From NCBI GenBank assembly GCA_023634235.1, contig JAMKCF010000022.1, positions 5,200,541 through 5,264,540 of the forward strand: a DNA stretch of 64,000 nt. Reading direction: 5' to 3'. This DNA is from Pisaster brevispinus (taxonomy: Eukaryota > Echinodermata > Asteroidea > Forcipulatida > Asteriidae). Positions 6,341 through 57,782 of this stretch are shown piece by piece (positions within the stretch are counted from its first letter, which is position 1; every line of letters begins with the position of its first letter). Below the pieces are notes generated by a model, which saw nothing but the letters and a program-made list of their open reading frames with translations, was not told the origin of the DNA and did not search any database. The translations under genes and the position numbers were made by a program.

Positions 6341-6640
6341 CATGAATTCAGCCAATTTGACTTTCAGCTTGACGAATTCAGCTTTCCAGCTTATACTAAT
6401 TCAGCTTGTCGGCTTACATGAATTCAGCTTGTCAACTTACATGAATTCAGCCTGTCAGCTTACAAGAATTCAGCTTGCCAGCTTACATGAATTCAACTAT
6501 TTAGCTTACCACACAAATTCAGCATTTCAGCTTACATGAATTCAGCTTGTCAGCTTACATGAATTCAGCTTGTCAGGTTACATGAATTCAGCTTTTCAGC
6601 TTACACAAATTCAGCTTGTCAGCTTACATGAATTCAGCTT
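6341..6640. repeat. 23-bp minisatellite, about 13 degenerate copies
   Basis: The unit is close to atgaattcagcttgtcagct plus tac and contains an EcoRI-like gaattc in most copies. Copies vary by substitution and small indels. It lies in the gene-poor tract downstream of RhoGDI copy A. Confidence 0.8.
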
Positions 6641-9600: not shown

Positions 9601-10324
9601 GCATATTTGGTTTCTTGTATTTTTGTCATTTCTTACATAAGGCATCAATGCAATTTTACTTCTTATCAAATGTGTGTGATTTAAGTAGTATTAAATGACC
9701 AGCTTATGCATTATATGCAACAGACTCACATACATAGATGTCCTTGAAAATTGTGCAAACTATTAAAGTTCATAACTCGCCCTTCCACTACATGGCAATT
9801 TCAGTGTTCTTGTTTAAGCTTATCAATTACATAAAAGCGTACTGGAATTGTTAATTAGTCAAATATTACATTGCATCTTGAAAGATACCTGAGCTCCATT
9901 TCACAAAGCCAGGGTTTAGAGTCATATCAAGATGAGTTGCCATAATGATGTGTATTGTGACATCACTTAGCATCAAGATTGATACGCATCTATACATCAA
10001 TCCAATAGCTCTGTGTAAAATCAAGCCCTGTATTTATTACTATTAATTGATAATGCTGTGGTTTACAATTGCATTCAGTCCTACTGATAAAAGGATTCTG
10101 TGTGTTATAGTTCAACCATTGATTTCTTTCTACAATTAAGCATCTTTGTTCTGTACAACTGTATGTATTACAGAGTTGCAAAAAAACTTCACATTTTCTG
10201 GATGGTAAGAAAGTAACACCAAGTGAGCCAATTAATGATACCCATTGAAATGTTTGTTATTTTGTTAGACCCAAGCCCTTGGGTATACAGGTATACAGGT
10301 ATACAGGTGCAATGCGTTTACTCT
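6641..10324. other. AT-rich stretch downstream of RhoGDI copy A, possibly in part its 3'UTR
   Basis: No gene is seen apart from the foldback element at 7978-8340. On the minus strand the first AATAAA after the stop codon lies near 10032-10037, which would give a 3'UTR of about 290 nt. Further AATAAA motifs lie lower down, so the true end is not fixed by sequence alone. Confidence 0.4.
7978..8340. mobile_element. Foldback MITE, copy 1 of a family also at 54420-54806
   Basis: A central hairpin (8116-8130 against 8140-8154, aatctgagaaacgtt) is flanked by longer imperfectly complementary arms ending near gggtatacttttggtaat and aaaggtatactttgcc. The same hairpin and both flanks recur in reverse orientation downstream of the ankyrin gene, including the phrase gctaccaccttttgaaa. 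No coding capacity. Confidence 0.7.
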
Positions 10325-13300
10325 TTAGTCCCAATCAGACTTGATATCGAAGGCCCATTCCCAAGTAAGAAAGACACGTTCATCATCATCCATTAACTTA
10401 CTCTGAACGATGTAATGACCACGAACAAGCGCCCCTTTAGAAAACTCCTCCACTCGTGTTTCATACTCTCTGACCTCTTTAGAAGGACCATAGCTACCCA
10501 ACATATGTACAGAAGAGTCACCTAAACAAAGAAGACATTATACCAAATACTTGAGTTCAGCTGCAAGCAGTCCTAACTCTACAGTAGAGTCAACTAAACA
10601 AAGAAGACATTATACAAAATACTTGAGTTCAGCTGCAAGCAGTCCTAACTCTACAGTAGAGTCAACTAAACAAAGAAGACATTATACAAAATACTTGAGT
10701 TCAGCTGCAAGCAGTCCTAACTCTACAGTAGAGTCACCTAAACAAAGAAGACATTATACAAAATACTTGAGTTCAGTTGCAAGCAGTCCTAACTCTACAG
10801 TAGAGTCACCTAAACAAAGAAGACATTATACAAAATACTTGAGTTCAGCTGCAAGCAGTCCTAACTCTACAGTAGAGTCACCTAAACAAAGAAGACATTA
10901 TACAAAATACTTGAGTTCAGCTGCAAGCAGTCCTAACTCTACAGTAGAGTCAACTAAACAAAGAAGACATTATACAAAATACTTGAGTTCAGCTGCAAGC
11001 AGTCCTAACTCTACAGTAGAGTCAACTAAACAAAGAAGACATTATACAAAATACTTGAGTTCAGCTGCAAGCAGTCCTAACTCTACAGTAGAGTCACCTA
11101 AACAAAGAAGACATTATACAAAATACTTGAGTTCAGTTGCAAGCAGTCCTAACTCTACAGTAGAGTCACCTAAACAAAGAAGACATTATACAAAATACTT
11201 GAGTTCAGCTGCAAGCAGTCCTAACTCTACAGTAGAGTCACCTAAACAAAGAAGACATTATACAAAATACTTGAGTTCAGCTGCAAGCAGTCCTAACTCT
11301 ACAGTAGAGTCAACTAAACAAAGAAGACATTATACAAAATACTTGAGTTCAGCTGCAAGCAGTCCTAACTCTACAGTAGAGTCAACTAAACAAAGAAGAC
11401 ATTATACAAAATACTTGAGTTCAGCTGCAAGCAGTCCTAACTCTACAGTAGAGTCACCTAAACAAAGAAGACATTATACAAAATACTTGAGTTCAGCTGC
11501 AAGCAGTCCTAACTCAACAGTAGAGTCAACTAAACAAAGAAGACATTATACAAAATACTTGAGTTCAGCTGCAAGCAGTCCTAACTCTACAGTAGAGTCA
11601 CCTAAACAAACAAGACATTATACAAAATACTTGAGCTCAGCTGCAAGCAGTCCTAACTCTACAGTAGAGTCAACTAAACAAACAAGACATTATACAAAAT
11701 ACTTGAGCTCAGCTGCAAGCAGTCCTAACTCTACAGTAGAGTCACCTAAACAATGAAGACATTATACAAAATACTTGAGCTCAGCTGCAAGCAGTCCTAA
11801 CTCTACAGTAGAGTCAACTAAACAAAGAAGACATTATACAAAATACTTGAGCTCAGCTGCAAGCAGTCCTAACTCTACAGTAGAGTCAACTAAACAAAGA
11901 AGACATTATACAAAATACTTAGTTCAGCTGCAAGCAGTCCTAACTCTACAGTAGAGTCACCTAAACAAAGAAGACATTATACAAAATACTTGAGCTCAGC
12001 TGCAAGCAGTCCTAACTCTACAGTAGAGTCACCTAAACAAAGAAGACATTATACAAAATACTTGAGCTCAGCTGCAAGCAGTCCTAACTCTACAGTAGAG
12101 TCAACTAAACAAAGAAGACATTATACAAAATACTTGAGCTCAGCTGCAAGCAGTCCTAACTCTACAGTAGAGTCACCTAAACAAAGAAGACATTATACAA
12201 AATACTTGAGCTCAGCTGCAAGCAGTCCTAACTCTACAGTAGAGTCAACTAAACAAAGAAGACATTATACAAAATACTTGAGCTCAGCTGCAAGCAGTCC
12301 TAACTCTACAGTAGAGTCACCTAAACAAAGAAGACATTATACAAAATACTTGAGCTCAGCTGCAAGCAGTCCTAACTCTACAGTAGAGTCAACTAAACAA
12401 AGAAGACATTATACAAAATACTTGAGTTCAGCTGCAAGCAGTCCTAACTCTACAGTAGAGTCACCTAAACAAAGAAGACATTATACAAAATACTTGAGCT
12501 CAGCTGCAAGCAGTCCTAACTCTACAGTAGAGTCAACTAAACAAAGAAGACATTATACAAAATACTTGAGTTCAGCTGCAAGCAGTCCTAACTCTACAGT
12601 AGAGTCACCTAAACAAAGAAGACATTATACAAAATACTTGAGCTCAGCTGCAAGCAGTCCTAACTCTACAGTAGAGTCAACTAAACAAAGAAGACATTAA
12701 AGTAAATCCCTATTCTTTTCCCTGCTGAACGTTGTTTTCGTTGGTAGTCGTCAAAGTGTGTAAGGGAAGTAGCATTTCAAGGGTAGGTTACGTGTGAAAT
12801 GTTTCTGGTTTTCGGATCGAACAGAACTGCATGGCCGGTCCGATAAGATAAATAGTTTGGCAACAAGAATGTAATTTCTAAACGTTGACTGAACGGTAAG
12901 CTTTTGTTACACAACAATATTTTTCAGATCTCGCTACAAGTATGAAAAACAATACATTTTGTCATCATGGGGCCGCAAAAATACCTCGTATTATCCATGT
13001 TCTCATTACAACCGTGCTCATATCTTCCTTTTTTTTAAGACATAGAAACACGCATGGGACAGTTCGGGACTGGTGAAAAACTTCGTATAGACCGGCGTCT
13101 CGTATCTTTCGAGCTCGTATTAACGAGAGTCTACTGTAAATGTCTAATAAATGTAAGCATTTAGCTGTCGACTCCCAAAGCATAAACATCAAGTCTGAGT
13201 CCAAATGGTCGAGTCCCATTCTGAGTCATTAGTCATTGATCATCCTGACTCAAATCAGAGTCTGAGTCACGAGTCAAACAACTCCGTAGCAATACAAGTG

Positions 13301-16300
13301 ATGCCAGAGTTAGTCCCTCTGATTGGCAACAACAAACTGGCATGCTCAGAGGCTAACTGTACTGTATGTGGTCAACTAATGAGGCCCTATCATTAATGGA
13401 TATCAAGTTAACTATCATAACCTTGCTATCAGCTGACTACATTAAAGCAGATTGTGTGTTAGTAATATTACAGATCTTTCAAACTTACACTGCATATGTA
13501 AAGCAGACCGATACGTTTTTTGGAGATACTTCAAACCAAACACAATGTCATTTTTCACCTGCAAAGAGAGAACAATAAGACAACATCAGTTGACACTGAA
13601 ACTCTTTTAAGCATAGCATACAAGCAAGAGTGGAAATGTTGAATGATTGACAGGTTTTTTTTAAAACCTCTGTATAAAAATTGGAAAACATTAATCCTCA
13701 AGCAAACAGAACACAAACCAAACAAATACTGAAAGAATTGGAGCATGTCAAGAACCAAGAACTACTACGCGTTCACTCCATGTCACTACCCAGACAAAAT
13801 AAATGAATTTCGGTATACATCTTACTTTTCATTTGCCATGCAAATAATGATATGATTTTTCCCCCAACTTTTGAATTTTAATTTAATACAATTGTTCAAA
13901 TATCTTGTTAGTAACCATACAACCAGTTTGTATGATGCAACACATCATTTGGATGTTTCCAAAGTACATGGATCCCAGTCAATACCAACATGCAAGGTTC
14001 ACCCCACAGAGCAAATCCTGGACCAAACATCTGTTTCTACCCACTGTGCAGGGTATGTTTTTGGCCCATTCACACTCTACAATAAATGCACAAGATGTCT
14101 GCTTGGTAAAAGGTACATTCCGGGCGAATTGTAACACCTTAAAACCACATGCCCAAACTAGAGGAACAAAACCTCAACGATAAATCAGCCAGATAGGTGG
14201 GACTCACTAACCCCCAGGAGGTGGTGGCTTGCCTAGGAAGAGGAAATCTTGGATCACAGAACCTGAATTCATCACTTTTGGTCACTAGTTTCCCTAGTGT
14301 CATGATAGAATCAGAATCTAAGTCTGGAAGCAATGGTAAAGATGTTGTTTTCGGTAGGGTGGGGGGTTCAATGTGAACCCCACCAAATTGTTATCCAGCG
14401 ACCACATTAACATGGTTGGACCAATGAGGTAGTGGACAGATTGACATTTGTTGTGTTTAAGAAATACATTGGAGAGGTAACTCTGCTATAGAGTGATACC
14501 CGGGAAAGACTACTGCCACTAATTCCTCTGCAGCAGTGTTACTGTTAGTTCTGGAATGGATGGAGTTGGTCTACTTTAGCAGAGAAGTAGATACACAAAG
14601 TACTGTCCGTCATTAGAACTGATAATCGAGTTATTGAGAATCTTCATCGATAAGAAGATCTGGAATTTTTTTTGTGCTTAATACATTACCCCACAATGTG
14701 GATGTACAACAGAAGAAAAACATACATTATTCTCCAATCTGCTCAGTAACATCATTGCGATTCCTGATGACAAACACCTATTCATTTGTGGTGATCTGAA
14801 CGGCCATGCGGGTAAGGCCTTCTGGTGGTCTCAAAGGTTTTCCTGAAGGTACTAGAATTCTAGATTTTAAATTGTGGCTGCTGACCTTGTTGTAACCAAG
14901 ACCTCAGGCTCATCAACTATCATTCTGGTACAGTCTGTTCCCAAATTGAGATATCCTTGCAAGGGGGAATGAGCTTAAGGTGGTACGTGGCGTCAAAGTG
15001 ATAGGTTGAAAAGAAAGAACGTGTCACCCAACACAAGCTGCTTGTCTGGGATCCTGCTCTACAAACCACCATTATTACATCACTGCTATTTCCACAACCA
15101 GCACAGTCCATGGCACCTACGTGAACTATGCAAATGTTCAATGCAGTTGTTGCTGCTGTCAAAACAAATCCTAACTGTACATGTAACTTTCACAAATCTT
15201 GCATAATGTCATTTGTGTGGGAGCTGCTTTGTCAATGTTAAATGCAGGAATACAAGGGAACATTTTAGAAAATTTGTCACAATGTAGTACTTCTGTTGCT
15301 TGAGGAACACGGTGGGTAAAAAGTAAACAGTGCCTACTAAAAAAAAGCACACTCTGTGGAAGATAATCCAAAACATTGTTGATTTACAAATACCAGACAA
15401 ACTGGCACAGCTTACTGTAAATCTGAGTTTAGCTCGAAGCCCAACACCTTCTTTTATTGTGAAGGTCTTCTTCTTCAGCTCATCCAAATCACCTGGAGTA
15501 TAGGGTGTAATAATACAATATTGGCTGAAAGATTATAAAGGATTTGTGAGGCAGTCCAAACTAGAACAAAATGCCAATAGCCCTTAGCCATCTGGATATA
15601 ACTAAACATGTAGCCCAAATTTCAAAGCACTGACAACCATGCAGCATTTTCTGCACTAACACGTACAATGTACGATCGTCATTTCATCCATTAGATACCA
15701 TGCACACTTTGCAAACAAAAAGACACTGCTTACTAGTGAAAAAAAAAACCTGAAAGGGTTTGCTTCTGCAACAGGCCAGTTTTTTCACTTGCAGTCAGCA
15801 GTGTCAAAGCCTATATAGTTCTTATTGATAATGCTCTATATTAATCCTTGAAACAACGCCAATTGGCTCCCAAAAGTGACTGCTTTCACACATGCCTGTT
15901 AGAAACGTTTGATGAGATTGTACACCCATTGGACTAGGTTGGCAGCGTCTTAAAGACACCTAACCTTAAAGCAATACTCTGCAGTACTTTCTGCTTCTTC
16001 AAACCCAAGCCCTAGTAGGACTCATCCTATGTATTGTACACTGATTCATAGTCTGGTCAGGAACAGTAGGTCAGAGAACAGACAAGTCTTACCAGTTAAG
16101 TCAAGGATAATATCTTCACGATCATCCACAATGACGACCAACTTTTCCAGTGTGACCGTGGGGCCTTCACCTGTAACTGAGAGGAAAATGACACACAAGT
16201 AGGTAAAGAAAATGGTATTTCAACCACAAATATTGGATTCGTCAGCTGAAAGCATCCATGTTAATAAACAGGTCCTAAAGTTTGAGAAAATATCATCATA

Positions 16301-19300
16301 TTGGTAAAAAATAATGCTGTATCAATCAGGTTCAGGTTAGGTCAAAGTCGACAAGTCCCTAACCAGAAAGAGTTTGATGCATTTAGCATGTTTGTTGTTC
16401 AGGGTTTCAATTTGGATAGAAAATCCACAAGACCTGCAGGGCTTGTAGCTCAGAATTTGGACCAGAATTTTGTTAAAAACACTAGAATCAAAATGAGAAA
16501 ACACCACAATCAAACTAATTATATTTGCCTGCGTTACAATTGTATAGCAGGCAAAATTTGTCTGATCGTTTGTCAAATGCATTCATGATGTGTCAAAATG
16601 ATATGGGGAAAATGTGTAGGACAGCGTTGTAGATCATACTAGCTTGCCACTTTGGTCACACAGTCAAAGATGAAAATGGGCAACTTTTCCGTTCTTGTTG
16701 AAGCAAAAATTCAAGCCAGTCAAACAATGCTTTTAAACCAACTGGATAAATTAACATCCAATAAGTTTTGCAATTTTCAACAGTAGCTTAAAGAAAACCG
16801 GTGTGAGCCGAGTGATGTGCAAGTTGCTAATATTGAGGAAGTGAGGAAAGACTCTTACAAGTTTTGCAAGTGAGGGAATAAGGAGCAATACAAAGCCAAA
16901 ATCAAAGCTCTCAGAAAAATGAAGGAAGCAGACTTTATATTTCAGGCAGGCAGCAGTTCCAGTGAGATCAGGGACGCGACACTAGAGATCAGAGTGAAGA
17001 GATCTAACCAAAGACACCAGTTAAAGCAGAACATGGTAGTTGTCAGGCTCAACATGAAACACCATCTCCGGTTGGGCGTTTAAAACCAGAAAAACCAGAA
17101 ATGGCTGAAATTAAGAACAATAAGTCAGCTCAGGATCATTCAGATGTTGTTCCCTCTGAAATTTAGGAATTGCTACTTATATTGCTTTGTATAGTTGAGG
17201 TGAGCAAAAAACCTCATGTGGTTAATCCATTAACAAACAAACCCAGACTAGTTCTTGATTGCAGACACATAAACTTACACCTCTACAAAGAATCATTTAA
17301 GTATGAGGATGCACAGGTAGCCCGAGAGGTGTTTCAGACAGGGGATTTTGCAATAACCTTTGATCTGAGATCTGCATATCACCATAACGAAGTAATGGAA
17401 GAGCATCGAAAGTGTTTAGGCTTTGCTTGGGATGATGGATGTGGGAGAAGGTATTATGTGTTTAATGTACTGCCATTCGGGTTGGATACAATATTCACAA
17501 AAGTAACGAGAGCAATCAACAGTTGTAATGTTCCAAGAGCGACGGATTGCCTGGAAGTGCCAATTTAGAGGATGCAGGAGAAAAAGTGATTCAATTGGAA
17601 AGAGTTTGAAGAATCTCTGGGTCTCAATAACCAAAGAAAAATGTGAGTGGAAACCAAAGAGGAGAGCAGTTTGGCTCAGTTTAAATTGGGATTTCGAACA
17701 GGGTGTCATGCATGTCACTGAAAAAAAGAACAAGCAAGCTCAAAGATTCAATCAACCAATTACTGTCAGAATTGTTTGTGCCTATAGCAATAGTACGGGT
17801 TAGGCGGTTGGCAAATATCGCAGGTCAAATTGTATCAATGCATACTATTTTTGGATCATTGGTGCGGCTGAAAACAAGAGAGAAATTTGAATGTGCAGGG
17901 CCAGTTGGAATGCCGTTGTATTGCTATCAAAAGAAGCAAAATCAGAATTAATATTTTGGAGAGAGAATGTAGAGATTGAACAAGGCTAGCAGAATACATT
18001 TTGGATCATGAAGGGATCAAGATGGTGGGAGCTTGGTCAGAAATCAAAAAGTGTGAAAGTTCCACATGGAGAGATCTTGAAGCCGTTTACAGAATGGCAA
18101 GAGACAAAGTACAAGGCCTGGAAGGGCAGAACGTTCAGTTGTAAACAGACATCAAGAATGTGGCTAAGATAATCAAAGTGGGGAGTAATAATCCCAAATT
18201 AAGACAGCAAGTGTTGCAGATCAGAGAGATTTGTGTAGAAACTGACAGAAAGTTGGCCCAGTGTGGATACCAAGAAAAGATAACAAACTGGCAGATGATT
18301 TAAGCTGAAGGCTGATGGTGACCACTAGCAAATCAAGTTTAAGGCCTGTACTAAATTAGACTGCAGCTGGGGTCCTCATTCTTTAGATAGGTTTGCCTGC
18401 GGGTATGATACCCAGTGTCAGAAGTTTAACTAAACGAAATAAACTGGTGGGTACCTCCACTTAAATTAATTGCAAAAACAGTAGACAAGATGGTCACAGA
18501 AATAGCATGTGGAACGTTAGTTGTTCCATACTTGCAGTCAGCACCTTTCTGGCCGAAGGTGTGGAATGAGCTGGATTTTAAGTCCTTGTACAGGCCCATG
18601 AGTTCCTATCATCAGGAAAGTGTAAAAGTGGGATTATATTTGGAAAACAGGGAAGTAGTTTCAAACTAATCACACTTAAAAACACTGTTAATTTATTCTT
18701 TTAGCACTAGGAATTTCTTTAGCGGTCCATCAAGCAATGAGCGAGGCAAGAGTCACGTCAAGATAGCTGACAGAGTTAGCAGACACTATGTTGACCCATC
18801 TGACGGAATCAAGAAGTGAGGCAACCACAACCAAGTACTTGGCTGCATTCAAGAGATGGAAAACATTTATACATGCAGAGGGAGGGGAAGCCATACCGGC
18901 AAAGCCGATACATGTAGCCTTATACACCAGTTTGATTGATTTTAAGGATCCTCTATAAGTGTAGTTCAATCAGTAGTCTATTCAATCAAATGGCATGATA
19001 GGGCTCATAATATTCAAGGGTCAAGTGACCAAACAGGCAATAATTTTATGTACATTTTTTTAAAAACATCGAAAGGAAGATATTCGAAACCAGTTGTAAA
19101 GAAAGACAGTTACAGTTAAGCAAAGTGTTACTTTATGTGATAAATGCAGAGAGTCAGATGACATTCTGGTATTACAAGACCTAGCCATAATTGTTTGGGG
19201 GTTTCTGGTTTTCTCAGTGTTTGACTTTGTACTTAGAGTAAAAGTAAAACAGACTAATACAGAAAAGGTAGTACAGTAACAATTTCAAAAGGCAGCACAA

Positions 19301-20949
19301 AGGCTTGCCCCTCAAATTCTTACAAAATTACTTCGCTAGAGCAGGAATTTGTTTTGGACTCAAACCAGTTTATTTTTCATCCTGGTTACTGTAATAAAGG
19401 TAGAAAAGCATCAGTTAAGAAAAAATAAGCAAATAAGTTACATCAGAGTTTGAGAAACAGTTTTTGAGTCGGCTATGTGAAGTTTATGAAGAGGCAATTA
19501 TTGGTCTCTATTCACTAAGGGCCGGTGGTGCAACGGCTGCCGCAAGGGCATCTGTAAATGACAGGCTATGGAAGAGGCACGGCAGATGGTGAAACACCAA
19601 AGATGTAATGTAGATGATAGCCTGGAACACAGGCTGTCAGTTAGTCAGGCCTTGAAATAGTAAGAGGATGCATTAGTTCATAAACAATTATGTTCAGTGA
19701 ATGATGTTGACTCTGAAAATACAATGATGTTTTTGAACAGCATGATTATCAACAGTATCCATGTGGTTATGGGATCAATGTATATGTACATTGTTATTGT
19801 TGTATAAAGTATAGAAAGATCACAGACAATAATGTTGTGATAATTACTTAAATGTTTATATTAAAAACATTGTTGACACTGAAAACACAGTGAAGTTTAA
19901 AGACACGGTTAATGGTAGCCATCATGTCGTTATAAATGTTGTTAGAGTATGGGAAGATCAGAGCAAGGCACTAACAAAAAGCAACAACCTCTTTCCCGCT
20001 CTTTGAGTTCTAGTATCTAGACAAGCCATACCTTATATTGATGTAACAAATGGTGTAATTCTCTAGGACAGTTTAGAGGAAAAATGACATAAAAGAATAG
20101 ACTTATATTTGCTTGTGTTACCGTTGTATAGCAGGCAAAATTTGATCAGTTATCGAATGCTCTGAAGTGATTGTATGCAAGGAACAAATTGAAATGGGAA
20201 AAATGAGCAGGAAAATGTAGTTGGTCATTCTAGCTTGCGACTTTGGTTCAGGTTAGAACACAGTGGAATGCCTTTGAAAAAGATATGCAAAATTTGTTTA
20301 ATATCAAACAGCAAACCTTAATGAAGTACAATAAGCTAGCAGCCACAAGGTTTTCCAGAGTTCTTTGCTCATTGAGTTTAATCTGTGGTTTTTAATCCCG
20401 TGGGACTTTTCAAGTTGCTGTAAAAGGAATATGCAACAAAATATGTCTGTAAATATGTAATAAGTATTCAAATCACAGTCAAAGTTAATAAATTAAGAGT
20501 CAGCTCCATCTGGTGGTTGAACCACCGGGCAAGCCATCCTATATTGGCGTAACAAATGGTGTAATTCCTTAGCACAGCTCAGAGGAAAAATGATGTATAC
20601 AAAATAGATGAACATACTAACAGATGAACTTTTTTTTAAGCAAACAAATACCTTAGGACATGGGTTAATTGTCTTCTTTACTTTTGCATACTGAACTCTA
20701 AATATGTGATGATACATTTGGAGATACATGTTGCACATGTACATTCATCCATATGGTGAACAAACCTGCTGTAACATCAACATCTTCTCCCAACAAGGAC
20801 CTCTTGTACTTATTCAGGCTTTCATCATCTTTATCCAGTTCTTGTATTTCTTTGAGTGATTTGTGAGGTGGTGGTTTGTAGGTAGCACTGTCTTTTTGAT
20901 CACTTCCTACATCACAATGGGATGCTGGGTTATTTTCTGTTTCAGCCAT
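10325..20949 (-). CDS. RhoGDI: Rho GDP-dissociation inhibitor, copy A (5 coding exons)
   Basis: Coding exons, in order of translation, are 20766-20949, 16093-16170, 15416-15492, 13489-13558 and 10325-10521. All junctions are GT-AG, and the joined frame is open for 201 aa (vertebrate RhoGDI is about 204). The family binds prenylated GDP-bound Rho, Rac and Cdc42, keeps them in the cytosol and blocks nucleotide exchange. Visible landmarks are the N-terminal switch-binding arm (YKPPPHKSLKEIQELDKDDE, residues 24-43), the immunoglobulin-like fold with DLTGDL, IVFGLKYLQKTY (residues about 117-128), LGSYGP, and the closing WEWAFDIKSDWD. Exon 4/5 encodes two more residues than copy B in the loop before LGSYGP, and the usual REIVSG appears as NDIVFG. 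The gene is more diverged than copy B, but no stop or frameshift is seen. Intron 4 ends in a 72-bp array of acceptor copies; introns 1 and 3 carry retroelement remains. The true 5'UTR start is unknown; an acceptor-like site just upstream of the ATG suggests a separate leader exon. Confidence 0.9.
10515..12699 (-). repeat. 72-bp minisatellite made of the RhoGDI-A intron 4 / exon 5 splice junction, 31 acceptor copies
   Basis: The gagtca(c/a)ctaaac core starts at 10515 and recurs every 72 bp to 12674, with one 1-bp deletion near 11918. On the gene strand each unit reads: intron tail, pyrimidine tract tgtcttctttgtttag, then the first ~14 nt of exon 5 (GTGACTCT, then a/t, then CTGTA). Only the copy at 10515-10521 continues into the real exon. 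The other 30 continue into another repeat unit. Units carry either AG-GTGACTC or AG-TTGACTC; both keep the acceptor AG. In the frame set by exon 4, use of any upstream copy would add about 18 codons and end at TAA inside the unit. The matching intron of copy B is only 181 bp and has no such array. The array reads as a long open frame on the plus strand only because 72 is divisible by 3. Confidence 0.95.
14461..15160 (+). pseudogene. Decayed LINE endonuclease (EEP/AP-endonuclease domain) fragment
   Basis: Translating across frameshifts gives the ordered landmarks of a non-LTR retrotransposon endonuclease: WRGN-A near 14470, GMDGVGL near 14555, a FFVL/AY-APQ-like stretch near 14670-14700, then IPDDKHLFICGDLNGHAGK at about 14760-14815, GTRILDF near 14850 and DLVVTKTSGS near 14885. 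Several frameshifts and stops break it. It lies inside RhoGDI-A intron 3, antisense to the gene. The clade cannot be fixed because no reverse transcriptase part is present. Confidence 0.7.
16526..16650 (+). repeat. Terminal repeat A1 of the Ngaro-like element
   Basis: It matches 20103-20250 imperfectly, sharing tatatttgc, ttgtatagcaggcaaaattt and tagcttgc-actttgg. It marks the probable 5' end of the element. Confidence 0.65.
17176..18660 (+). pseudogene. Reverse transcriptase / RNase H remnant of the Ngaro-like element
   Basis: 17176-17568 is an open piece with KPRLVLDCRHINLHLY, FKYEDAQVAREVF, the motif-A-like FDLRSAYHH and YYVFNVLPFGL. The catalytic YxDD segment expected next is not visible: after about 17540 the homology resumes at EWKPKRRAVWLSLNWDFEQG, so a deletion probably removed it. 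RNase H-region pieces follow: RRLANIAGQIVSMHTIFG (about 17800-17860), SSTWRDLEAVYRMARDK (about 18060-18110) and a stretch around 18150-18290. GPHTLDRFACGYDTQ-like and PYLQSAPFWPKVWNELDF pieces extend to about 18580. Many frameshifts and stops. Confidence 0.75.
18725..19659 (+). pseudogene. Tyrosine recombinase remnant of the Ngaro-like element
   Basis: The N-terminal SAM-like part is visible near 18800-18930 (TTTKYLAAFKRWKTFIHAEG, then IPAKPIHVALY). The catalytic C-terminus is at about 19497-19590: GLYSLRAGGATAAARASVND, then RLWKRHGRW and a stop, followed by a DDSLEHRLSVSQALK tail. In related recombinases the triad H precedes S-L-R; here that position (19509-19511) is tat, Tyr. Interrupted by frameshifts and stops. 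Confidence 0.75.
20023..20098 (+). repeat. Repeat B1 of the Ngaro-like element
   Basis: It shares aagccat, tgtaacaaatggtgtaattc and agaggaaaaatga with 20531-20610. It directly abuts A2. Confidence 0.65.
20103..20250 (+). repeat. Repeat A2 of the Ngaro-like element
   Basis: Second copy of the 16526-16650 repeat, lying directly after B1. Confidence 0.65.
20531..20610 (+). repeat. Repeat B2 of the Ngaro-like element (probable 3' end)
   Basis: Second copy of 20023-20098, about 508 bp downstream. It ends some 155 bp before coding exon 1 of RhoGDI copy A. Confidence 0.6.
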
Positions 20950-31440: not shown

Positions 31441-34400
31441 TCATTCCCAATCTTTTTTCAATTGAAAACTCCATTCCCACTCCAAAATGGAATTTTTATC
31501 ATCATCACTGAATTTGCTTTTGACCACGTAGGTACCTCGATGTAACAAACCAGCAGGGGCTTCCTCGCTTGGTGTTTTGTAGACGTGTGCTTCAGTTTTG
31601 GGTCCATAGCTCCCAACCATCAACTTGTTTTTGTCAACTGAAAACAAACAAATAATCATGTTTACTTCTCAGCGCGTTCACTTTCTAAGACCAAAACAAC
31701 CCTGGATCTAGATTTCGTTGTCAAATATTCAATAACGAAAAGATTGTTTTTACATAATCTAACCAAAGGGAATGTAACAATGTGTATTCCAATTGATCAT
31801 CAAAGGTCTTTCTCTTACCTTTTATTCCTTTTCTATAAACTTCCTGCATGTATCTAAGCCCTGAAACAATCTCACGCTGAACCTGAATAAAACCATACAA
31901 AGGGCAATCAATTAAACATTTAAAGAATCATAATCATTTTTTATTATCTGATATTTATATTTCAAATGTGCTCTTGACTTATTTAATATTGTGTTTGTAT
32001 GTAAAGATATGCAATATTTTCAAATGAGGTACATGTACAAAATGTAGAAATTCTCCATGATGCATTGTAAACTGCAATGAATTCCTTATTAAAAATGTAG
32101 CAATGATAGGACCACACCTACTCTATGACCAACCCAACAGATAGTAAAAATGAGCACTGGTTTTGTGAGAATTACTGCCCCCTAAAAATTGAAGAGCCTC
32201 TGTTACATTAACCCCAGATTTAGTCAACAGCCAATCTTCACCCCCCCCCAAGCGAGGAACAGCGTAGTGAATTGATGTGGTTATGGGTTTCCTCATGGAC
32301 AGCCAGTCATCTACTTGTTGACTGTTAGTGAGTCAAGTGAACACTATCAATTCACTAAAGTGATTGTTCTAACCCCCCCCCCCCTTTTTTTTTAGCTATG
32401 TAGATTTTCCTTATAAGTTAATTATGTTAGTCACATAGATCAGCTACATATCATTCTTGGTCAGTTAAGCTTTATTGAAAGGAGATACTCCTATTCTTAA
32501 ACATTTCCAAATCTTTCAATTCTTTGCATTGTATTGAACTGCATAGGTTTTTGACAAAGCTACCCTAAAAAGTTCCATGGAGTGATGTTTTTCTCAAAGG
32601 ATTATTCTGTTTTCCTATTGATATTTAGAAAATTAGTTTGGTTATATAAAACCTCATAGATTATCATAGAACTTATTCTAAGTTTATATTCAATATTTCC
32701 ATTGATTTGTAATTTGGTGAGGAAAAGTCATGATAGTTTGGAAGTTTCAGCATTCTCTCTCAATTGCTTATTAGTTTACACATGGATATAGCCAGGCATA
32801 GAACGGTCAGTTCTCATGGCCTGAGACAAGGCCCTACTCCCTTGTATGAAATAAACTTAAGCCCTGAGGCTATGGTCAATGGTAGAGGGTAGATTGGATT
32901 CTGTCCCAGTTTAAGCATCACCACTAGGTCTTGCCAAGATCCCCCAAGAAAGAGGGTTTTAAGAATGTATTTCTTTATTCTTTTGGTATTGAGTTAGTTG
33001 GAAAAGGGCTGTGATTTACTATAGTTCAGGAGTAAAGGGTCATGGATTTAATGACAGTAGAGGCACAGTTAGGATTAATGGCCTTCCTCTATGCCTTGAC
33101 CTAGTTTTTACTGTTTACCCGAGTACAACTTTGTATCATATACTGGATGACTGTTAATGAGTAATAAACATTCAGTTCACTAAAGTGGTTGTTCTCATAC
33201 ATCTTTTCAGATGTATGAATAACATTGTAACACAACAAGTGATAAGTGTAACATTAATACACAGCTATTATCAACTCACCCTGAATTCAATGTGTATTTT
33301 GTACGAAGTTCCTTCTTTCAAAACAAAGGGTTTGTTTTTCAAGGTAGCCAAATCACCTGAATGTTAAAGAGAAAAGATCAAATCAACTATTTCTAGCAAA
33401 AACAAGTTGCAGCCAAATCTCTGCATGTAAGCGATTTGAGAGTAATGGTTCTTTCCGCTCGCTCTAGGAATCGAATGGATGAGGTCCTCTGGTGACCAGG
33501 CGTAATTTTTTAGGGAGACCCCCACCTGCCTCAAACTGAGGACGGCCCAAGAAAAGGTTGGCTAAACAAGGCATGCCCTTCTTCCCAATGCTGGTATCCC
33601 ATTGTCAGCAGGTCTCCAAGCTTTGGAAAAAAGTTACAGATTTTATCAAACAAATCAAAACTTGATCATAATTGGGGGAGTTGGGAAATGTTTGAAAAAT
33701 GAAGGCCCAATTCAAGCCACTTGGTCCATTTTTGTGCTTATTTTTGTGTGTGCACCATTTAAATTTTTTTGGGGTGGACTGTTTCTACTTCTTTTCTGAT
33801 TCTGCAGAAAAAGAAAAGTCAGAAATGTGCAGCATTTTAGCGGTTTCTGTCATTAGAGGGTAATTATTAATGGGAACAACAGTGCAAGGACCCGGTCATC
33901 ACTGCGTGATAATAACCTTGGTTGATGGTTGGCCAATGTTAACAGCTTGGTCCAAAACAGCAGCAAGTCACCAACCTGGGCATTACCACGCAGTGAAGAC
34001 CAAGTCTCGCACTATTATTCCCTAAACAAAGTAGTGCATTACATACATCAGATACCTGGTTACCTGGAGGAAATTTGTTTGCACACGACGTATCGTACAA
34101 ACACAACAATACTGCTGATACAACTTTCTTGCAGTGAAAATCAATTTAAGGACTTCAATTTGCCATTTGTGATAAAAAATAACGGATGCCAAGGTGTGGT
34201 CTCAGCAGCTAACATGGAATGCTGACTTTAAACAATAACAAGTTTTTATTGGAACATGTAAACAAAACGAAAACAGTTCAACATGCAGTACAATTGTGAG
34301 ATACCAATTTATCATCGCCCATGAAACGCTCAAAAAATTGTCTGGATTAGTGTCTTCTTTGAAGATGTGATGAAGTGTGAACTATGCAAGTGATCAAAAC

Positions 34401-37400
34401 CTGCCATTGTCCCATGTGTAAGCTTAACATCCTAGCGGCAATGTTGTGATGCTCTTTGATTCAGTAGTTGGTATTGCCAACATTTAATTTGCAACTCTAT
34501 TGATTGTTTATCAAGCTATAGAATAAAGACTCTAAGGTATTTTGTTTGATGGGGATTTTACTATTCTTGCAGAACACAAAAAAGAATGAAACTCGTAACA
34601 AGACCACAAAATAACCTCAGATCACACGTGTTCTTGCTACAACCGCGCTTGATCTTCTGTATTTGGATACATTGAAACATGGGCGGGGCAGTTGCCTCTC
34701 ATAAATGTGGCCGGTCGCCCTGATTCAACTCTTGGCTAAGGCCATATGCAAGTAGAGTTGTGCGTTAGTTCTCTCATATACCAACAATGTGGCCGGCCGC
34801 CCTGATTCAACTCTTGGCTAAGGCCATATGCAAGTAGAGTTGTGCGTTAGTTCTCTCATATACCAACAATATGGCTGGCCACTCTGATTCAACTCTTGGC
34901 TAAGGCCATATATATGCAAGTAGAGTTGTGCGTTAGTTCTCTAATATACCAACAATTTTTTTCTCCAGGCCCTCTAGTTTTCATCCCCTCCAGAAAAAAA
35001 ACCACTTTGATCTGTGGCTGTGCTCTATGGTCATATATGGGTCAATGAGGTTGGCTTCCAAAAAGCACTCTTCAGCATGAACACACACAAATTATCAACC
35101 TCAGAGTTTGTAACTTCTGAGATCATCTTTTGAGAGTTGACTGTAAATGTATTATGGCTGACCAAATTGAATGAAGAAGCAGAAAAACAAATTGTTACCT
35201 AAATTTGCACCAACAAAGTACATGTAATTAATTTAATGTGTCAGTGTACAAAACCTAGAGTTTCACAACTGCCACAATGGCCATTGCCACGATGGCCATT
35301 GCCACCATTGCCGTTCAAGTGGCCATGATGCCTCCTGCAAGTAAGCAAGTAATCCTGTTGATAAGTCCCAGGTATTGGAACCAGGAGAGCAGTGTAAACA
35401 TGTTAACGACATCTATGTATACCATTCATTGCCATAGCACTTCCTGCTCCAAAACGTCATCACTTACCAAAAAGATTACCAGTCACTTTGCTGTGCGCTT
35501 GTCCCCCATAAAACATGGAAATCATATGTTATAGATCAATTAAGTTTTTTTCCTGCAAAGTTTTACCTGTTAGGTCAAGACATATGCCCTCACGTCCCTC
35601 TGGAGCAAACACCAAAGCCTTTACAATGACATTGTTACCCCCTTCATCTGCAATGTGAGAAAACAAAACAAATTTTGGTTTTAAAACAAAACATTCCAAA
35701 GTCATTAAGTACAGGCACACGTATGTTTGTTTTTCATGTTGGCAAACCCATCATTTATCATGAACAATTTTCCTAACTTATGGTGTTCTATATCTGCCAT
35801 CTAGCATCTCGCATAATCAAATCTCGTGTCAAGTTTTTCAGTCTTGCATCTTGCATCTCACGTTAATGTTACAGGTAATTTGATACCCTGTGTTGGTTTA
35901 GATTGATGGCAGGGCCATTATGCTACCACCACCTCCTGTCCTTTTATTGTTTATAATGAAATCATACATGTAGCCGTGTGCAAGTAAGTCATGGGATAAG
36001 ACCATAGGGTGACATGAAAAATATTTTGACAGTATTTGATAAATGCATCATAAAGAGTTTTTTTAAAGACAAGCAAAGAAAAACAATAGGACTAAAGCGC
36101 ACTTGAAATTTAAAAAAAAGCTAAGTTTTATCATTTACAAATCTTCTCCCTGTGTCAAATAAGAAACAAGTATTGAAAGGCAAGCTTGGAAAAAACTTTT
36201 CAGGCATGTACAGTTCTTTATAGTAGGGGGTGGGTTTTGGAAAAAGTGAGACAGAAACGTGAAGGAGCATAGAATGGAAACGGTAGGCCCCCCTATAGAT
36301 TGGATAAACAAGTTTTTTAAAGGGGGTGGCAGAAAAAAGGGGGAGAGAGGTGCTGCATGGTGGAGAACAAAAGATTTTTAACAAGAGTCATCAGGGAATC
36401 GATGGTCAGGGAACCATATAGCATTGTAAACAAACACGGGGTATCAAATTACCTGTTGCCATTTAATGTGAGATGCAAGATGCGAGATTAAAAACATAAC
36501 GCGAAATTTCTTAACGCAAGATTTGAGATGGCAGAAATAGAACACCATATTAACTTGATGACTGCCATCTGTTTGGTTCCCAAAATGTTCAACATTTCCA
36601 CTGTCGTACAAGGTGTACGATGGGGGCAGGGGGTCGAGAAAAATCTATAGTCCGTCAACCTTGAGCACATCCGGTTTAAATTATACGCATAGGTACAGTG
36701 ACCTAAAAACGAGCGAGTGAAGTAACTACTGTGAACTTTGATACTGCTCTACTATGAACCATGAATCCATGAATACTCTACCCACAGCTTATTCATGGAT
36801 GCCACACCTGCCATGCTTTACCGTTCACTCTAAAAGTACTTGTGTTTGCACACAGGGATTTTGCCGCAAGGTTGTCACTGCCAAAAATCATTACCTTGCA
36901 ATCTGACCACCCTAAATGATCCTGCAAACATTTCAATCAGACTTTAAAAAAAACACCACGTCCTTGACTCGGCAATCCTTAAATCACAAAAACAAAATAT
37001 GAATCAAAGTTTAATCATTTCACACCTTTGTCATTATTACATGGACATAGTGATAAGTTTGTACAGGAAGATGCAATCGACTGTATCATAAATATTTCAT
37101 TTTAGATTAGATTGGAAAATCAAGAGTTTTTTCCCAATGTTTTTTTTCCAACATTCATTTAAAAGTGAGGGCATATACTATGAAATCAACATAAGGGAAT
37201 GTCCGAGTGTGTTTCTCTGACTGCAAAAATCAGGATATTGTTGGAATCGGTTTGACTAATTTGATAAAGTGTGACAGACCAGTAAAAAATCTGGTAGACT
37301 ACATGTAGTTAAAAATCAAGCTAAATGGTCCAGATGGCTAAGGGGAAAAAAGGTCAAGGTATTATACAAGATTGCTAGAGATGACAATAGTTGCAGACAA

Positions 37401-38089
37401 TCATGTTTTGTGTGATCGAGCCATGAATTAAAAAACCTGTGAAACCTAGGGCTTAATCCGTTGTGTGAGTCAGGAAAAAATAGTGCACAAATTCAGAATG
37501 TAAACACATTGTCCTTAATTTTGGTTGTAACAACCGAAATCAGCGGTTATGTTTTGTTAAGTTTTCTTGAATGTGACTTCATTTTAAAAGGAAATATTTC
37601 ACAGAGAAGATGGTTTTGGTAAGAAGTTCATCATCAGTAAGCTTTCAGACTAAAATTAAACAATGTAATTCTTACCTATCATGTGTAATACCTTTTAGGG
37701 AAACCCTGTAAGATAATGTACACTAGACATCTTATCCTCTTTACCAAGTACATCAAAAAAATTGGGATCTTTTCAGTTCAAATTTTCATACCATCATCTG
37801 ACTAAAGGAGAAAGATTAACTCCAACAATGCCTTTAACTTTTTGTTAGTGGGTTTGTCACAGTTATAAGTGTACATTCATTGAAACAAGTAAACATAGTT
37901 TATACCTAAAACTTTGTCTGCACCAGCAAGCAAACTTTCCTTATATTTAACCAAGCTTTCATCATCTGCATCCAGTTGTTGTATTTCTTCTAGCGTTTTT
38001 TGTTTTGGTGCTTTGTATCCTGGGGTCAATTCTTCCTCCCCTTCCACATCCACTCCCACTGCAACAGGTTGTTCAGGTTCATCTGCCAT
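31441..38089 (-). CDS. RhoGDI: Rho GDP-dissociation inhibitor, copy B (5 coding exons)
   Basis: Coding exons, in order of translation, are 37906-38089, 35567-35647, 33280-33356, 31819-31882 and 31441-31637. All are GT-AG and join to a 200-aa frame. It extracts prenylated Rho-family GTPases from membranes and holds them GDP-bound in the cytosol. Landmarks are the N-terminal arm with PGYKAPKQKTLEEIQQLDAD and DESLVKYKESLL, an acidic segment before it, DLTGDL, the family signature VQREIVSGLRYMQEVYRKGI (residues 115-134), MVGSYGPKTEAHVY, the loop EEAPAGLLHRGTYVVKSKFS, and a C-terminus ending WEWSFQLKKDWE. It is closer to the vertebrate family than copy A and is likely the canonical gene. Exon 1 starts 5 nt before the ATG, at an acceptor (ttttttggttag), so an untranslated leader exon lies upstream. 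Exon lengths and phases match copy A closely: 184 against 184, 81 against 78, 77 against 77, 64 against 70 and 197 against 197. Confidence 0.95.
34709..34956. repeat. 82-bp tandem repeat, three copies
   Basis: Copies start at 34709, 34791 and 34873 (ggccggccgccctgattcaa type). The third copy has a short at-repeat insertion and a few substitutions. It lies in RhoGDI-B intron 2. Confidence 0.9.
35780..36549. mobile_element. Foldback element with terminal inverted repeats of about 115 bp
   Basis: The left arm, 35780-35900 (atggtgttctatatctgcc ... tttgataccctgtg), is mirrored by 36425-36549 (cacggggtatcaaa ... ggcagaaatagaacaccat), with moderate divergence and small indels. The interior has no transposase. 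It lies in RhoGDI-B intron 1. Confidence 0.75.
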
Positions 38090-40080: not shown

Positions 40081-40358
40081 TCCCATCAAGAACTCAGTTC
40101 TTGTTGCCCTCACGATGTTTCATGGTTTCTTCTAGCGATGCCCCACCGTTTGAATTTGGAAAACGAAGCAGAGGATGTCCTGCTTGTAAAACACCCAAAT
40201 CCAGACTGTAAAAGTCCTCAGTGGGACCCGATGTTAATTAAGGGTTTTTGTTTTACTTCCCATTGGTTTTGTACACAAAGTCAAACCAAGGTCATCCTTA
40301 TCTGTAAAACTACCTGGGTCCCTTTTTCCAAAGTCCTTCATGTGAATAGGTAGAAATG

Positions 40359-40652
40359 TTCACCCACACACTCCCACCCACCACGCATCCCTATCAAGAG
40401 TTCACCCACACACTCCCACCCACCACGCATCCCTATCAAGAGTTCACCCACACACTCCCACCCACCACGCATCCCTATCAAGAGTTCACCCACACACTCC
40501 CACCCACCACGCATCCCTATCAAGAGTTCACCCACACACTCCCACCCACCACGCATCCCTATCAAGAGTTCACCCACACACTCCCACCCACCACGCATCC
40601 CTATCAAGAGTTCACCCACACACTCCCACCCACCACGCATCCCTATGAAGAG
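40359..40652. repeat. 42-bp minisatellite, seven copies
   Basis: Seven units run without gaps, almost identical except a c-to-g change in the last (tatgaagag). The unit is C-rich and purine-poor on the plus strand (cacccacacactcccaccca). Long frames on both strands arise only because 42 is divisible by 3. Confidence 0.95.
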
Positions 40653-41175
40653 TTCTATTGTTTTTTCCTTTGTCCCTGTATTAACATCCTCCCATAGACT
40701 TTGCACACAAAATTCCTTGTGGTATACCTGGGGAAATCTTGTATTCCAATTGTCCTCAGTGTCCATAATGTAGCAAAGAGAGGGACACATTTTCAACATG
40801 GTAAACTACGACTACTCCATGTCCCATTGTCTTGTTTAACTCTTTTTACCCACACCATAATGAAAATGTTCTTGGTAAAAAATCTATACACTCAATCACA
40901 CAGACATGCTTGTCCATGTGGTAAATGGATAACTTATGTGTCATACCCATTGGTTTTGTCACCAGAAAGCATGGACATCCTCGCTCTGTCAAAGTACCTT
41001 GATCCCTTTTGTACGTCCTCCATTTCAATCAGTAGACACCCCCAGATAGTATATACACACAAGATACAAATGTGAGATCTATAACACTTGAGAAAAATGC
41101 TTCTCTTTTTGAGAAAGAGAAAATTGAAAGAGCCACCAAACATATCTTCAGTATCTAAATTACAATCCTGTGTCT

Positions 41176-50608: not shown

Positions 50609-52509
50609 TTTGATCGTAAACTTTGACAGAAATTATGTAGAACACGACTGAAACGACTGCAACCGGATTCTCTTGGACACAGCACTGTAGTGATTAGTGA
50701 ATGTACAAGGATGAAATGGCGGCACAAACCACGCGAAACGTACGCTATCAGGTTCCTGAACGACATTTTTGCATTTATTGCTATAACCGAGTGCTGAGAA
50801 ATCCAATATTTCAGAAGGGAACCCGTCTATGATGAAAGTCGCCCTCTTGTGTTGGCTTACGAACACTGTCTTTGTTTCTTCTCTGGCCAACCGGACTCGA
50901 TCTATTCATCAAGAGACTGAAAAGGCAACATCTGGGACTGTGATGATTGTGGGCCCGGGGGGGGGGGGGGGGGTTGCGGGCTGGGAGAACGAGGTTACTC
51001 TCTATCAAAAAATTAAATATAGACGTTCAATATGCATGGAAAGCTTAGTGACTTTCCCACAAGTCACGAATTGACTTCACATTTTGTGTGCAAATTTGTT
51101 GATATCCCCGGACACATTTTGAAATACCATACGTACGACGAAAGGTTGCTGATGGAACGTAGGGCCTACTTGAAATAATTATATGGGGGGGGGGTCGGCA
51201 CTGCATCAAATATCAGCCATCTAGTTTAAGGAAAGTGTGTTTATGGTGTTTAAATTTGTTTTCCATACCGTATGGAAAATAATGTGTTGGCCTAATTGAT
51301 TGACAAAGTAAACCAATAGAGGCCCATTCGTTTGGGAAGTATGGGAGACAGGCGAATTGGGGTAGGTTCGAGTTCAGGCTGGAGCTATGAATTTAGGACT
51401 AGAACTGCATGTATTGAAATGTTCACGACAAAACGGTGTGGCGATCAATAAGGGAGGCCTGGGTCAAAGTTTTGCCGTGGATGTTGGCACACACAAATTA
51501 CAGTCTATACATTTCGTGTTGTGTTTTATATTTTACTTTAGATTCCCTACTGTCTCACAATTATGTGTAGTGTTTTGACTGTTTTAAGTTAATTAACCAC
51601 GTAGGACCTCATAAGTAGTTTATGTAATAAATAATGCATGCCCAATGGCTCAGCCGAAACCAGTTTGATCTTTTGGGGCATGCACTGCGTAATTTAATAA
51701 TGAGACAAATAAATAGTCACAAACTCAAACATTTAATGTTCCAAGCGTTTAGTGAATGTGTTTATCGGCTGCCGTTATTTCGGTAGAACATAACATACAA
51801 GCAGTCCCCTAATTAACAACTTGACTGCCATGACCCTGTATCTCACCAGAATATGTGTATGTTCAGCTTGGGGTAAAATTAGTTAAACTAATAACGTTGT
51901 TTTGTTCAAGCAGATAGCGTCAAAATAAATTCGAGTCGCGTACCGAATTCATTGCACATTGTGGTGAGTTTGTGTTAATAAATGACAATACAAGCCTGTG
52001 GGTATCCTTTAAATGCATTGAATCGTTCGTTAACAAAGGCACTTTGGCTATACGGGTTTACTGTTATGTGTAAATCATCCATTTGGACTATGATCTTTTA
52101 CAAGAAGTTATTGATTTCCAATGGGTTGGCGTTTTGAAGTGTACATAGAAACAGCCAACCCATTATGGGCTTCATTATGGGCTTCATGTACAAGAAAGAG
52201 GCGGCTAATACTGCCATGGGGCTTGAACCGCTGCGTGTAACGAGAACTATCACTTGTAATACAACACAAACTGAGGAAACCAACAACCGATCAACCCGTT
52301 TGACATTTTGGCATGCTCAGTATGCCTACAAATTGGTCATCGCACCAATGATGATCCCTATAATAGGATTATGCACATACAAACTATAAATTGAAATTGT
52401 AATCTCTCATATTATGGCCGACAGAGATGTGCCAAGTCGGTCTCGGCACTGTGTCAAACAACTATACCATCTTATTCAGCCTTGACAATGTGGGACGCAA
52501 ACTAGCAGG
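50609..52509. other. Intergenic region between the divergent ALYREF and ankyrin genes
   Basis: ALYREF (minus) and the ankyrin gene (plus) point away from each other across about 1.9 kb, so both promoters should lie here. No motif could be assigned confidently. Poly-G runs occur at about 50956 and 51186. Confidence 0.45.
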
Positions 52510-54063
52510 ATGACCGAGAGACTGATGGACGCAGTCTTGTCACTACGCTACCAGCAACTGGAAGCACTCCTACGGAAAAATGTATCTGTCAATACACGGA
52601 ACAGACTTGGCCAAACTCCCCTCATGGTGGCATGTTATGTCTCAAACGAAGAAAAGAGCTACCGCATGTTCAAATTTCTTCTCAGGAAAGGTGCTGATAT
52701 TATGGAATCAGACGACCAGCGAACGAGTGTATTCCAACATGCGTGCAAGCAAGGTCGAGAGCAGATTGCTAGGTGTATCATTCGGGCGATGAGTATAGTG
52801 GCCGTAGACCTAGGTGGAAAGAACCTAGAAGGCCGAACTCCGCTGTTTGATGCCGTGACCAGTGGTAATGAGAGTCTTGTCAGATTCATTGTGAGGTTGA
52901 TGAGGAAGCGTTCTCTCACAGTCGATATACCAGACCATTCTGGTGTGACTCCCCTTATACAGGCGTACAAAATGGGATTCGTTGCAATTGCTCAAGTTTT
53001 AGAGAGAGATGGGAAAGCCAATCCAAGAATTTGTGACACAGAACGACATATGAACTCCCTCGAATGGGCCGAAGAGGCAGCGCAAAAACGACTCCGTGCT
53101 CTAGCACTACACAAGAAGCGCAAGAAGGAGCATCAAATGATTTATCCCCATTTTGATCACCGTAAACTTCCACCATTTCCGTCGCATAAGAGTTCGTCAC
53201 TTCCAGAGATAAAACCTCGATGGGAATGGGCCTCGATTAATACCAAATCCGATACCATTGGCGGGAACACCTGGAACAATGACTCCCAAAGAATTGCAGA
53301 TCGCAATTACAATAGCTCTATCATCGAGGAATCGTTGCAAATGAGTTCCGGTAATAAAGATCCTAACTCTTCAGTTGTAAGCAAGTCTCTAGACTCGGCT
53401 ATGACGCTGCTTGAACTTTCTTCAAAGACAAGCAATAATATACACTTTGCAAAGAACTTTGTGTCAAGCCATTTTGATAAATCAAAGATAAGTGAGTATG
53501 GAAATTTAACGACTGTCAACTCATTACTCACAATATACTCAAGTCAGTGCGGCAGCACCTTCAGACAACCCGCCAAGCCGCCACCACCAGAACCGAAACC
53601 CGTCTTAGAAAAACAACCCAATTACGAAAAAAAGGCATCAACACTTGCCTACATTATGGGGCGTGGTACACTAAGAGTTAAAGATCGAAGATACTACAAA
53701 AAAAGTCGCAAGAGAACCGCTAAAAGAAATCACACGGGACCACATCAGCAAAGCAGAAGAAGCAGTGCAAGCTCGTCATCAGATTCGGCTACTGGGAGGT
53801 TAAGTGTATCTCGTATGAACATCAAAGCTTATGATGGAAGTCACAACAGACGTTCACAAAATGGTAAAGCGATAAGTAATGTAAACGTGGACCAGGATCG
53901 AGCAAATCTCGGTAAACTCAAACGACACTCAAAGTCGGTTTACGATTCGCAGAAACTGAGTCGGGTACCAGAAAATGACCATGGATATCGCCAGTCAGTA
54001 GCACCGAGTCTGAAACCCAGAGACTCTTTACCAAACATAAGAGTAACTGCACCATCTGCTTGA
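52510..54063 (+). CDS. Ankyrin-repeat protein, 517 aa, single open frame
   Basis: One uninterrupted frame from ATG to TGA. The N-terminal 180 residues form about five ankyrin repeats, with the TPLxxA signature visible at GQTPLMVAC (residues 34-42), RTSVFQHAC (71-79), GRTPLFDAV (108-116) and GVTPLIQAY (145-153). A basic, possibly helical stretch (WAEEAAQKRLRALALHKKRK) follows at about 186-205. The remaining ~310 residues are Ser/Lys/Arg-rich and look disordered, with a short proline run (PPPPEPKP) near residue 360. No signal peptide or membrane segment is seen. Such proteins act as binding scaffolds; the partner is unknown, and no named family is claimed. The 5'UTR may be spliced, since an acceptor-like ctagcag precedes the ATG. 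The first clear AATAAA downstream is at about 54909. Confidence 0.85.
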   Translation: MTERLMDAVLSLRYQQLEALLRKNVSVNTRNRLGQTPLMVACYVSNEEKSYRMFKFLLRKGADIMESDDQRTSVFQHACKQGREQIARCIIRAMSIVAVDLGGKNLEGRTPLFDAVTSGNESLVRFIVRLMRKRSLTVDIPDHSGVTPLIQAYKMGFVAIAQVLERDGKANPRICDTERHMNSLEWAEEAAQKRLRALALHKKRKKEHQMIYPHFDHRKLPPFPSHKSSSLPEIKPRWEWASINTKSDTIGGNTWNNDSQRIADRNYNSSIIEESLQMSSGNKDPNSSVVSKSLDSAMTLLELSSKTSNNIHFAKNFVSSHFDKSKISEYGNLTTVNSLLTIYSSQCGSTFRQPAKPPPPEPKPVLEKQPNYEKKASTLAYIMGRGTLRVKDRRYYKKSRKRTAKRNHTGPHQQSRRSSASSSSDSATGRLSVSRMNIKAYDGSHNRRSQNGKAISNVNVDQDRANLGKLKRHSKSVYDSQKLSRVPENDHGYRQSVAPSLKPRDSLPNIRVTAPSA

Positions 54064-57646: not shown

Positions 57647-57782
57647 GGCTAGCTCCCATGGTAACACACGATGTTCACGTGGCTAGCTCCCATGGTAACA
57701 CACGATGTTCATGGGGCTAGTTCCCATGGTAACACACGATGTTCACGGGGCTAGTTCCCATGGTAACACACGATGCTTACGG
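57647..57782. repeat. 34-bp tandem repeat, four copies
   Basis: Copies start at 57647, 57681, 57715 and 57749 (ggctagctcccatggtaaca type), with a few substitutions. Confidence 0.9.

Follow-up and report, generated by a model that had tools for sequence, protein, structure and literature searches.

Which acceptor is used when the 3' splice site of an intact gene is repeated many times in front of its last exon, and how can such a repeat grow without destroying the gene? The question is raised by one of two RhoGDI genes (copy A) in the window, that is, the whole stretch of 64,000 nucleotides that was analysed (C22:5200541-5264540).

The RhoGDI gene and its repeated junction

According to the splice model, copy A has five exons with an intact frame of 203 aa, and its coding exons extend over 10,625 bp. 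A slash marks the splice junction here and below.

20766-20949, minus strand: coding exon 1 of RhoGDI copy A (tblastn and splice model)
16093-16176, minus strand: exon 2 of copy A (splice model)
15416-15492, minus strand: exon 3 of copy A (tblastn and splice model)
13489-13558, minus strand: exon 4 of copy A, ending CAGT/gtaagt, phase 1 (tblastn and splice model)
10522-13488, minus strand: intron 4 of copy A, 2967 bp (splice model)
10521-10522, minus strand: real exon-5 acceptor of copy A, TTTAG/GTGACTCTTC (junction count and splice model; use implied by the protein P0001, see below)
10325-10521, minus strand: exon 5 of copy A, including the stop codon (tblastn and splice model)

The protein matches Rho_GDI (PF02115) from position 9 to position 193 of the 193 profile positions with 192.2 bits, where the curated cut-off is 26.5, and the solved structures related to it by sequence include 1ds6, 1cc0 and 1doa. 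Its nearest named relatives in the list of 120 matches (out of 168) are from Asterias amurensis (81% identity), Patiria miniata (60%) and Acanthaster planci (58%), so that the animal is most likely a sea star closer to Asterias than to the other two. In the comparison with A. amurensis, 56 of the 65 residues of exon 5 and 108 of the 138 residues in the remainder are identical; as judged from these protein sequences, exon 5 is conserved as well as the other exons. Within intron 1, the segment 16519-16656 matches 20103-20247 with 73% identity over about 149 aligned bases, and is probably a dispersed repeat. When positions 10000-17000 were compared with the window at the DNA level, this was the sole match besides self and array-to-array matches, and no match to the second RhoGDI gene (copy B) was found.

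The features of interest lie at the downstream end of intron 4.

10508-12699, minus strand: 72-bp minisatellite; the unit carries a pyrimidine tract and AG followed by 14 nt that resemble exon 5, and a candidate branch point is present in the copies examined (TRF and junction count; branch points printed for 8 of the 31 copies)
10594-12681, minus strand: 30 extra acceptor copies, 15 with AG/GTGAC and 15 with AG/TTGAC (junction count)

Intron 4 ends in 31 copies of its own junction. These were counted on the minus strand as TTTAG/[G or T]TGACTC, with the G of the AG running from 10522 (the real site) to 12681. The spacing is 72 bp in 29 of the 30 steps and 71 bp in the remaining one. The pattern demanded TTTAG; since the series is unbroken at steps of 71-72 bp, no copy was missed by it. 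TRF reports a period of 72, 30.5 copies, 98% matches and a score of 4132 for the array, which, with its head-to-tail units of 72 bp, falls within the definition of a minisatellite (units of about 10-100 bp). The layout described in the earlier note, an intact RhoGDI gene with 30 extra acceptors before its last exon, is thus confirmed by TRF and the pattern count, together with the gene, strand and intron that it named; and it is indeed the downstream-most acceptor only, the copy at 10522, that leads into the full exon 5.

In gene orientation the unit opens with the 14 nt that resemble exon 5, continues with a filler and the pyrimidine tract, and closes with TTTAG. Among the 31 junction copies, 27 share the same final 20 bases of intron. 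The 14-nt exon part is common to the units and exon 5 apart from one fixed mismatch (CTCTACTGTA in the array vs CTCTTCTGTA in exon 5) and the first base, which varies between G and T. This base divides the upstream copies into two classes of equal size, 15 reading AG/GTGAC, as the real site does, and 15 reading AG/TTGAC. There are 11 distinct types among the 30 units, arranged in the order ABABACACACDAEFGBHBIIBJBIIBJBIK, in which the five-unit block BIIBJ is duplicated in tandem and A/B and A/C pairs alternate. Seven columns are variable among the 29 full-length (72-bp) units, and one further unit has a deletion. The homogeneity of the array and these higher-order steps look as they would after a recent amplification.

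Origin of the array and comparison with the paralogue

The genome searched comprises 549.7 Mb in 512 contigs. A 30-nt core of the unit has 29 matches at up to 3 mismatches, all within the array, and is absent from the rest of the 549.7 Mb at that threshold (repeat counts in this search are lower bounds). The 71-bp unit is missing from these matches because its deletion falls in the core. A query of 200 nt from the array returned at least 13 matches, every one at the copy A locus. The confinement of the core to the array indicates that the amplification took place at this locus; a dispersed satellite was accordingly rejected as the source, the unit being private to this locus as far as searched.

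Other sources were considered for the filler. Its derivation from elsewhere in the window was rejected, the matches being 10-19 nt long with a best E of 0.76, and so was its derivation from the neighbouring terminal-inverted-repeat (TIR) element, where the matches are just 7-10 nt long. A coding repeat on the plus strand (open frame 10494-11756, 420 aa) was also rejected. One of the six frames of the unit is stop-free, which by a rough estimate is about the chance expectation, and no relatives of the plus-strand product 10494-11753 were found at E ≤ 0.001 among the 7987 scored candidates that had the most words in common with it.

12723-13138, plus strand: right half of a TIR element, with 39 further genome copies at 87-90% identity

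This element, which we take to be MITE-like, is situated between exon 4 and the array. It has lost its left half, and 23 bp separate the broken end from the array; the break or deletion thus occurred beside the array. The further copies were recognised by scoring 40 of 857 candidates, of which 39 were other copies at the identity given above. Seven were fetched and six tested, and four of the six have both ends, with lengths of 674-776 bp. The left end is TACAGTCGACTC in three of the four two-ended copies and TACAGTAGACTC in one, with TA outermost. That the break and the amplification of the array are causally tied is only a guess.

Three other minisatellites are present in the window, at 40358-40655 (42 bp, 7.1 copies, 99% alike), 6374-6640 (23 bp, 11.5 copies) and 57645-57782 (34 bp, 4.1 copies). 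A long open frame with ankyrin repeats lies on the plus strand at 52486-54063.

31441-38089, minus strand: RhoGDI copy B, with exons 38089-37906, 35647-35567, 33356-33280, 31882-31819 and 31637-31441 (tblastn and splice model)

Copy B encodes 200 aa and is arranged head to tail with copy A on the minus strand. An 82-bp tandem repeat of three copies (34704-34956) lies within its intron 2. The two genes are strongly diverged, their exon 5 proteins being 48% identical. Copy B had been proposed as a natural control for the effect of the array. Its intron 4 is indeed array-free; however, with a length of 181 vs 2967 bp and a different acceptor (CAG/TTGAC), it is not a matched control.

Choice among the acceptors

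Splice sites were scored with an approximate weight matrix. On this scale the real exon-5 acceptor has 8.20 bits; 13 of the 30 upstream copies have the same score, and 17 have lower ones (4.19-6.92). The proposal that the gene offers 31 equal acceptors therefore holds for the 13 ties, but not for the 17 weaker copies, and 15 of the 30 read AG/T. Outside the array, no scored AG in intron 4 reaches 8.20 bits, and the seven other introns of the two RhoGDI genes contain 0-3 decoys each at or above the score of their own true site (in both cases for the AGs beyond the first 40 nt of each intron). On these grounds a chance origin of the acceptor copies was rejected. The best branch-point candidate is CTGA[A or G], with its A 34-35 nt upstream, in seven of the eight copies printed (of 31), and TTTAC at 22 nt in the upstream-most copy, the remaining one of the eight. 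By their sequence, the array units look like complete 3' splice-site modules, though not all equal ones.

Use of an upstream acceptor may be translated into a predicted product. Exons 1-4 encode 138 aa, to which an upstream acceptor would add 18 residues before a stop, for a total of 156 aa, in both upstream copies translated; the earlier estimate of about 18 codons was accurate. The Pfam match of the predicted 156-aa product stops at profile position 132 of 193. Because the stop would lie within the last exon, classical junction-dependent decay would not be expected. None of four poly(A)-signal hexamers sought in intron 4 of copy A is present, and by that test the array is without a poly(A) site of its own. 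In a simple outcome model, equal competition among the 31 sites gives 1/31, or 3.2%, of full-length product, while commitment per copy of 1% gives 74% and commitment of 10% (0.1) gives 4.2%.

The full-length product is represented by P0001, a protein of 203 aa that is identical to copy A at 201 of 203 residues and at 65 of 65 over exon 5, and that agrees with it at the residues of the exon 4/5 join. P0001 sits on a public contig of 2605 nt, which is too short for the 10.6-kb gene and is thus probably a transcript using the last acceptor. The counterpart of copy B, P0121, is 99% identical to it and sits on a contig of 3864 nt, and the copy B gene covers 6,649 bp. The simplest reading is that P0001 and P0121 are assembled transcripts of the same or a sister species, in which the last acceptor is used. 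P0001 may also come from an animal or a sister species without the array, or from an intronless retrocopy.

A truncated copy A product would be expected near the top of the ranked protein matches. After P0001, the best match among the 120 listed of 168 is 81% identical to copy A, and no truncated product is among them; the matches come from a protein collection, which is ill-suited to rare isoforms, and a single full-length contig gives no proportion of truncated transcripts. With the full-length product found and the truncated one not, the evidence on splicing leans towards tolerance of the array.

It appears reasonably probable, therefore, that the junction segment was amplified in place, that the last acceptor is still the one joined, and that the array is for the most part a passenger which the gene tolerates, with perhaps a little leakage of the 156-aa product. 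The segment that spans the end of intron 4 and the start of exon 5, from the candidate branch point through the pyrimidine tract and the AG to 14 nt of exon, would have been amplified where it lay, by slippage or unequal exchange, to yield a private minisatellite of 31 copies; the acceptor would have been multiplied because the amplified unit contains it. The mature mRNA would join exon 4 to the last copy, leaving the protein unchanged. The last copy would win by exon definition, as the sole copy in front of the real terminal exon, where the coding sequence and the poly(A) site follow, and the choice of an upstream copy would lengthen the last exon by 72 nt per copy. In excerpts of PMC9225289, exon definition is said to favour the sites closest across the exon. 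The same excerpts state that where 3' sites compete at a distance of 20 nt or more the upstream one is favoured overall, and that between long introns the upstream preference among equal 3' sites is significantly reduced, the exons in question being internal, not terminal. They would thus back the success of the last copy only in part.

The overall preference for the upstream one of 3' sites at least 20 nt apart, in those excerpts of PMC9225289, also speaks for a decoy or switch, in which upstream acceptors often capture exon 4, full-length RhoGDI falls with copy number, and a 156-aa protein without the C-terminal part of the fold is made. Such an array would be well served by the 13 upstream copies that tie with the real site and by the branch-point candidate at the same 34-35 nt in seven of the eight copies printed; equal competition would leave 3.2% of full-length product, and a commitment of 0.1 per copy 4.2%. 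We nevertheless consider it unlikely, in view of the known full-length P0001, of the list of 120 matches (out of 168), which includes no truncated form, of the conservation of exon 5, and of the scores of 17 upstream copies out of 30, which are lower than that of the real site. A switch or decoy effect has no support beyond the layout, and P0001 counts against a strong effect. A block of the decoy copies by RNA structure was also considered. The predicted folding of three single array units does not surpass that of shuffled sequences (z = -0.05, 0.31 and 0.29), and four control stretches gave z values of -0.70, -1.56, 0.05 and -0.35. In the two decoys tested (12569-12608 and 12641-12680, minus strand) a stem of 8-9 bp is predicted within the 20-21 nt that directly follow the AG, and none after the real AG, but the folding of these two decoys over the 40 nt downstream of the AG is no better than in shuffles. 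Such a block therefore has no support from the predicted folding of the two copies tested.

A good donor has the consensus GTRAGT. In an unspliced unit AG/GTGACT scores 6.92 bits as a donor, and the four real donors of the gene score 5.64, 9.02, 5.64 and 6.38. The 15 TTTAG/GTGACT copies might thus be acceptor and donor at once, each regenerating a GT in a ratchet-like manner until the array is erased stepwise, with the AG/TT copies as dead ends. Excerpts of PMC8605326 define recursive splicing by tandem acceptor-donor pairs, and according to excerpts of PMC4974935 tandem copies over an intron/exon border can yield a new intron. However, the donor regenerated after joining to exon 4 (AGT/GTGACT) scores 2.74 bits vs 6.38 for the native one, GTGACT is without the G at +5, half of the upstream copies (AG/TT) are unable to participate, and intron 4, with just 2967 bp, is not a long intron of the kind associated with ratchet points. 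Stepwise removal is therefore improbable. It is likewise very doubtful that the two classes act together as a copy-number-tuned element, in which AG/TT copies would divert exon 4 to a stable truncated RhoGDI and AG/GT copies would be re-spliced stepwise, so that the ratio of types and the copy number would set the amount of full-length product and vary it between animals. Finally, an assembly artefact, in which the array is in reality shorter, longer or misassembled, is quite improbable: the copies are nearly identical and no second array haplotype was found in the genome searches with the 200-nt query and the 30-nt core, but 11 ordered unit types, a single unit of 71 bp and the unique sequence on either side would hardly arise by a simple error.

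Related systems and meaning

We return to the preferred reading, of an array amplified in place and mostly tolerated, to compare the locus with systems already described. Turri et al. (1995) reportedly described in IFI6 (G1P3, 6-16) a minisatellite with multiple splice donor sites. Excerpts of PMC4526556 state that two downstream repeat units of IFI6 serve as donor sites and give three mRNA species. In IFI6, as described in these excerpts, and in copy A alike, a splice junction is covered by a minisatellite, the units of which carry splice sites by sequence (31 junctions here). The difference is that donors with reported mRNA use are repeated there, whereas the array in copy A copies the acceptor; the donor-like AG/GTGACT occurs in just 15 of the 30 upstream copies, and by the measure of IFI6 the array is not one of donor units.

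In the potato RdRp gene, according to excerpts of PMC4974935, a tandem duplication across an intron/exon border copies the putative branch site, the pyrimidine tract and the AG, and the resulting new intron, with a donor recruited from the exon, is backed by RNA-seq reads. As in copy A, the duplicated segment spans the end of the intron and the start of the exon. In contrast, there are two copies and an RNA-backed new intron there, and 31 copies, known from the DNA sequence, here. The ratchet points of recursive splicing, as presented in excerpts of PMC8605326, resemble the 15 of 30 upstream copies in which AG is followed by GT, but differ from them by the weak donor GTGACT, the intron of 2967 bp and the repeat array. 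IR1/EBNA-LP of Epstein-Barr virus differs in that its repeats are large and coding, each unit containing exons and a promoter, whereas the unit in copy A holds an acceptor and a stop only.

The remark in the earlier note that no gene with this layout had been described stands in so far as no acceptor-array minisatellite was found among the open-licence PMC papers listed, as judged by their titles and the first part of their abstracts; it is weakened by the close precedents in IFI6 and potato RdRp. Junction-spanning minisatellites are already known, and what is new here is the acceptor side and the number of 31 copies.

The observation is sound and unusual, as far as the sequence goes, and a functional role of the array is a candidate only. 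The array is a natural series of 3' splice sites that compete with one another, at fixed spacing and with near-identical local sequence, in an intact gene that is probably expressed, to judge from P0001. Counts of junctions to each copy would reveal whether the spliceosome picks the first, the last or a random one of several near-equal sites. They would also show how a minisatellite that bears an acceptor grows without destroying its gene.
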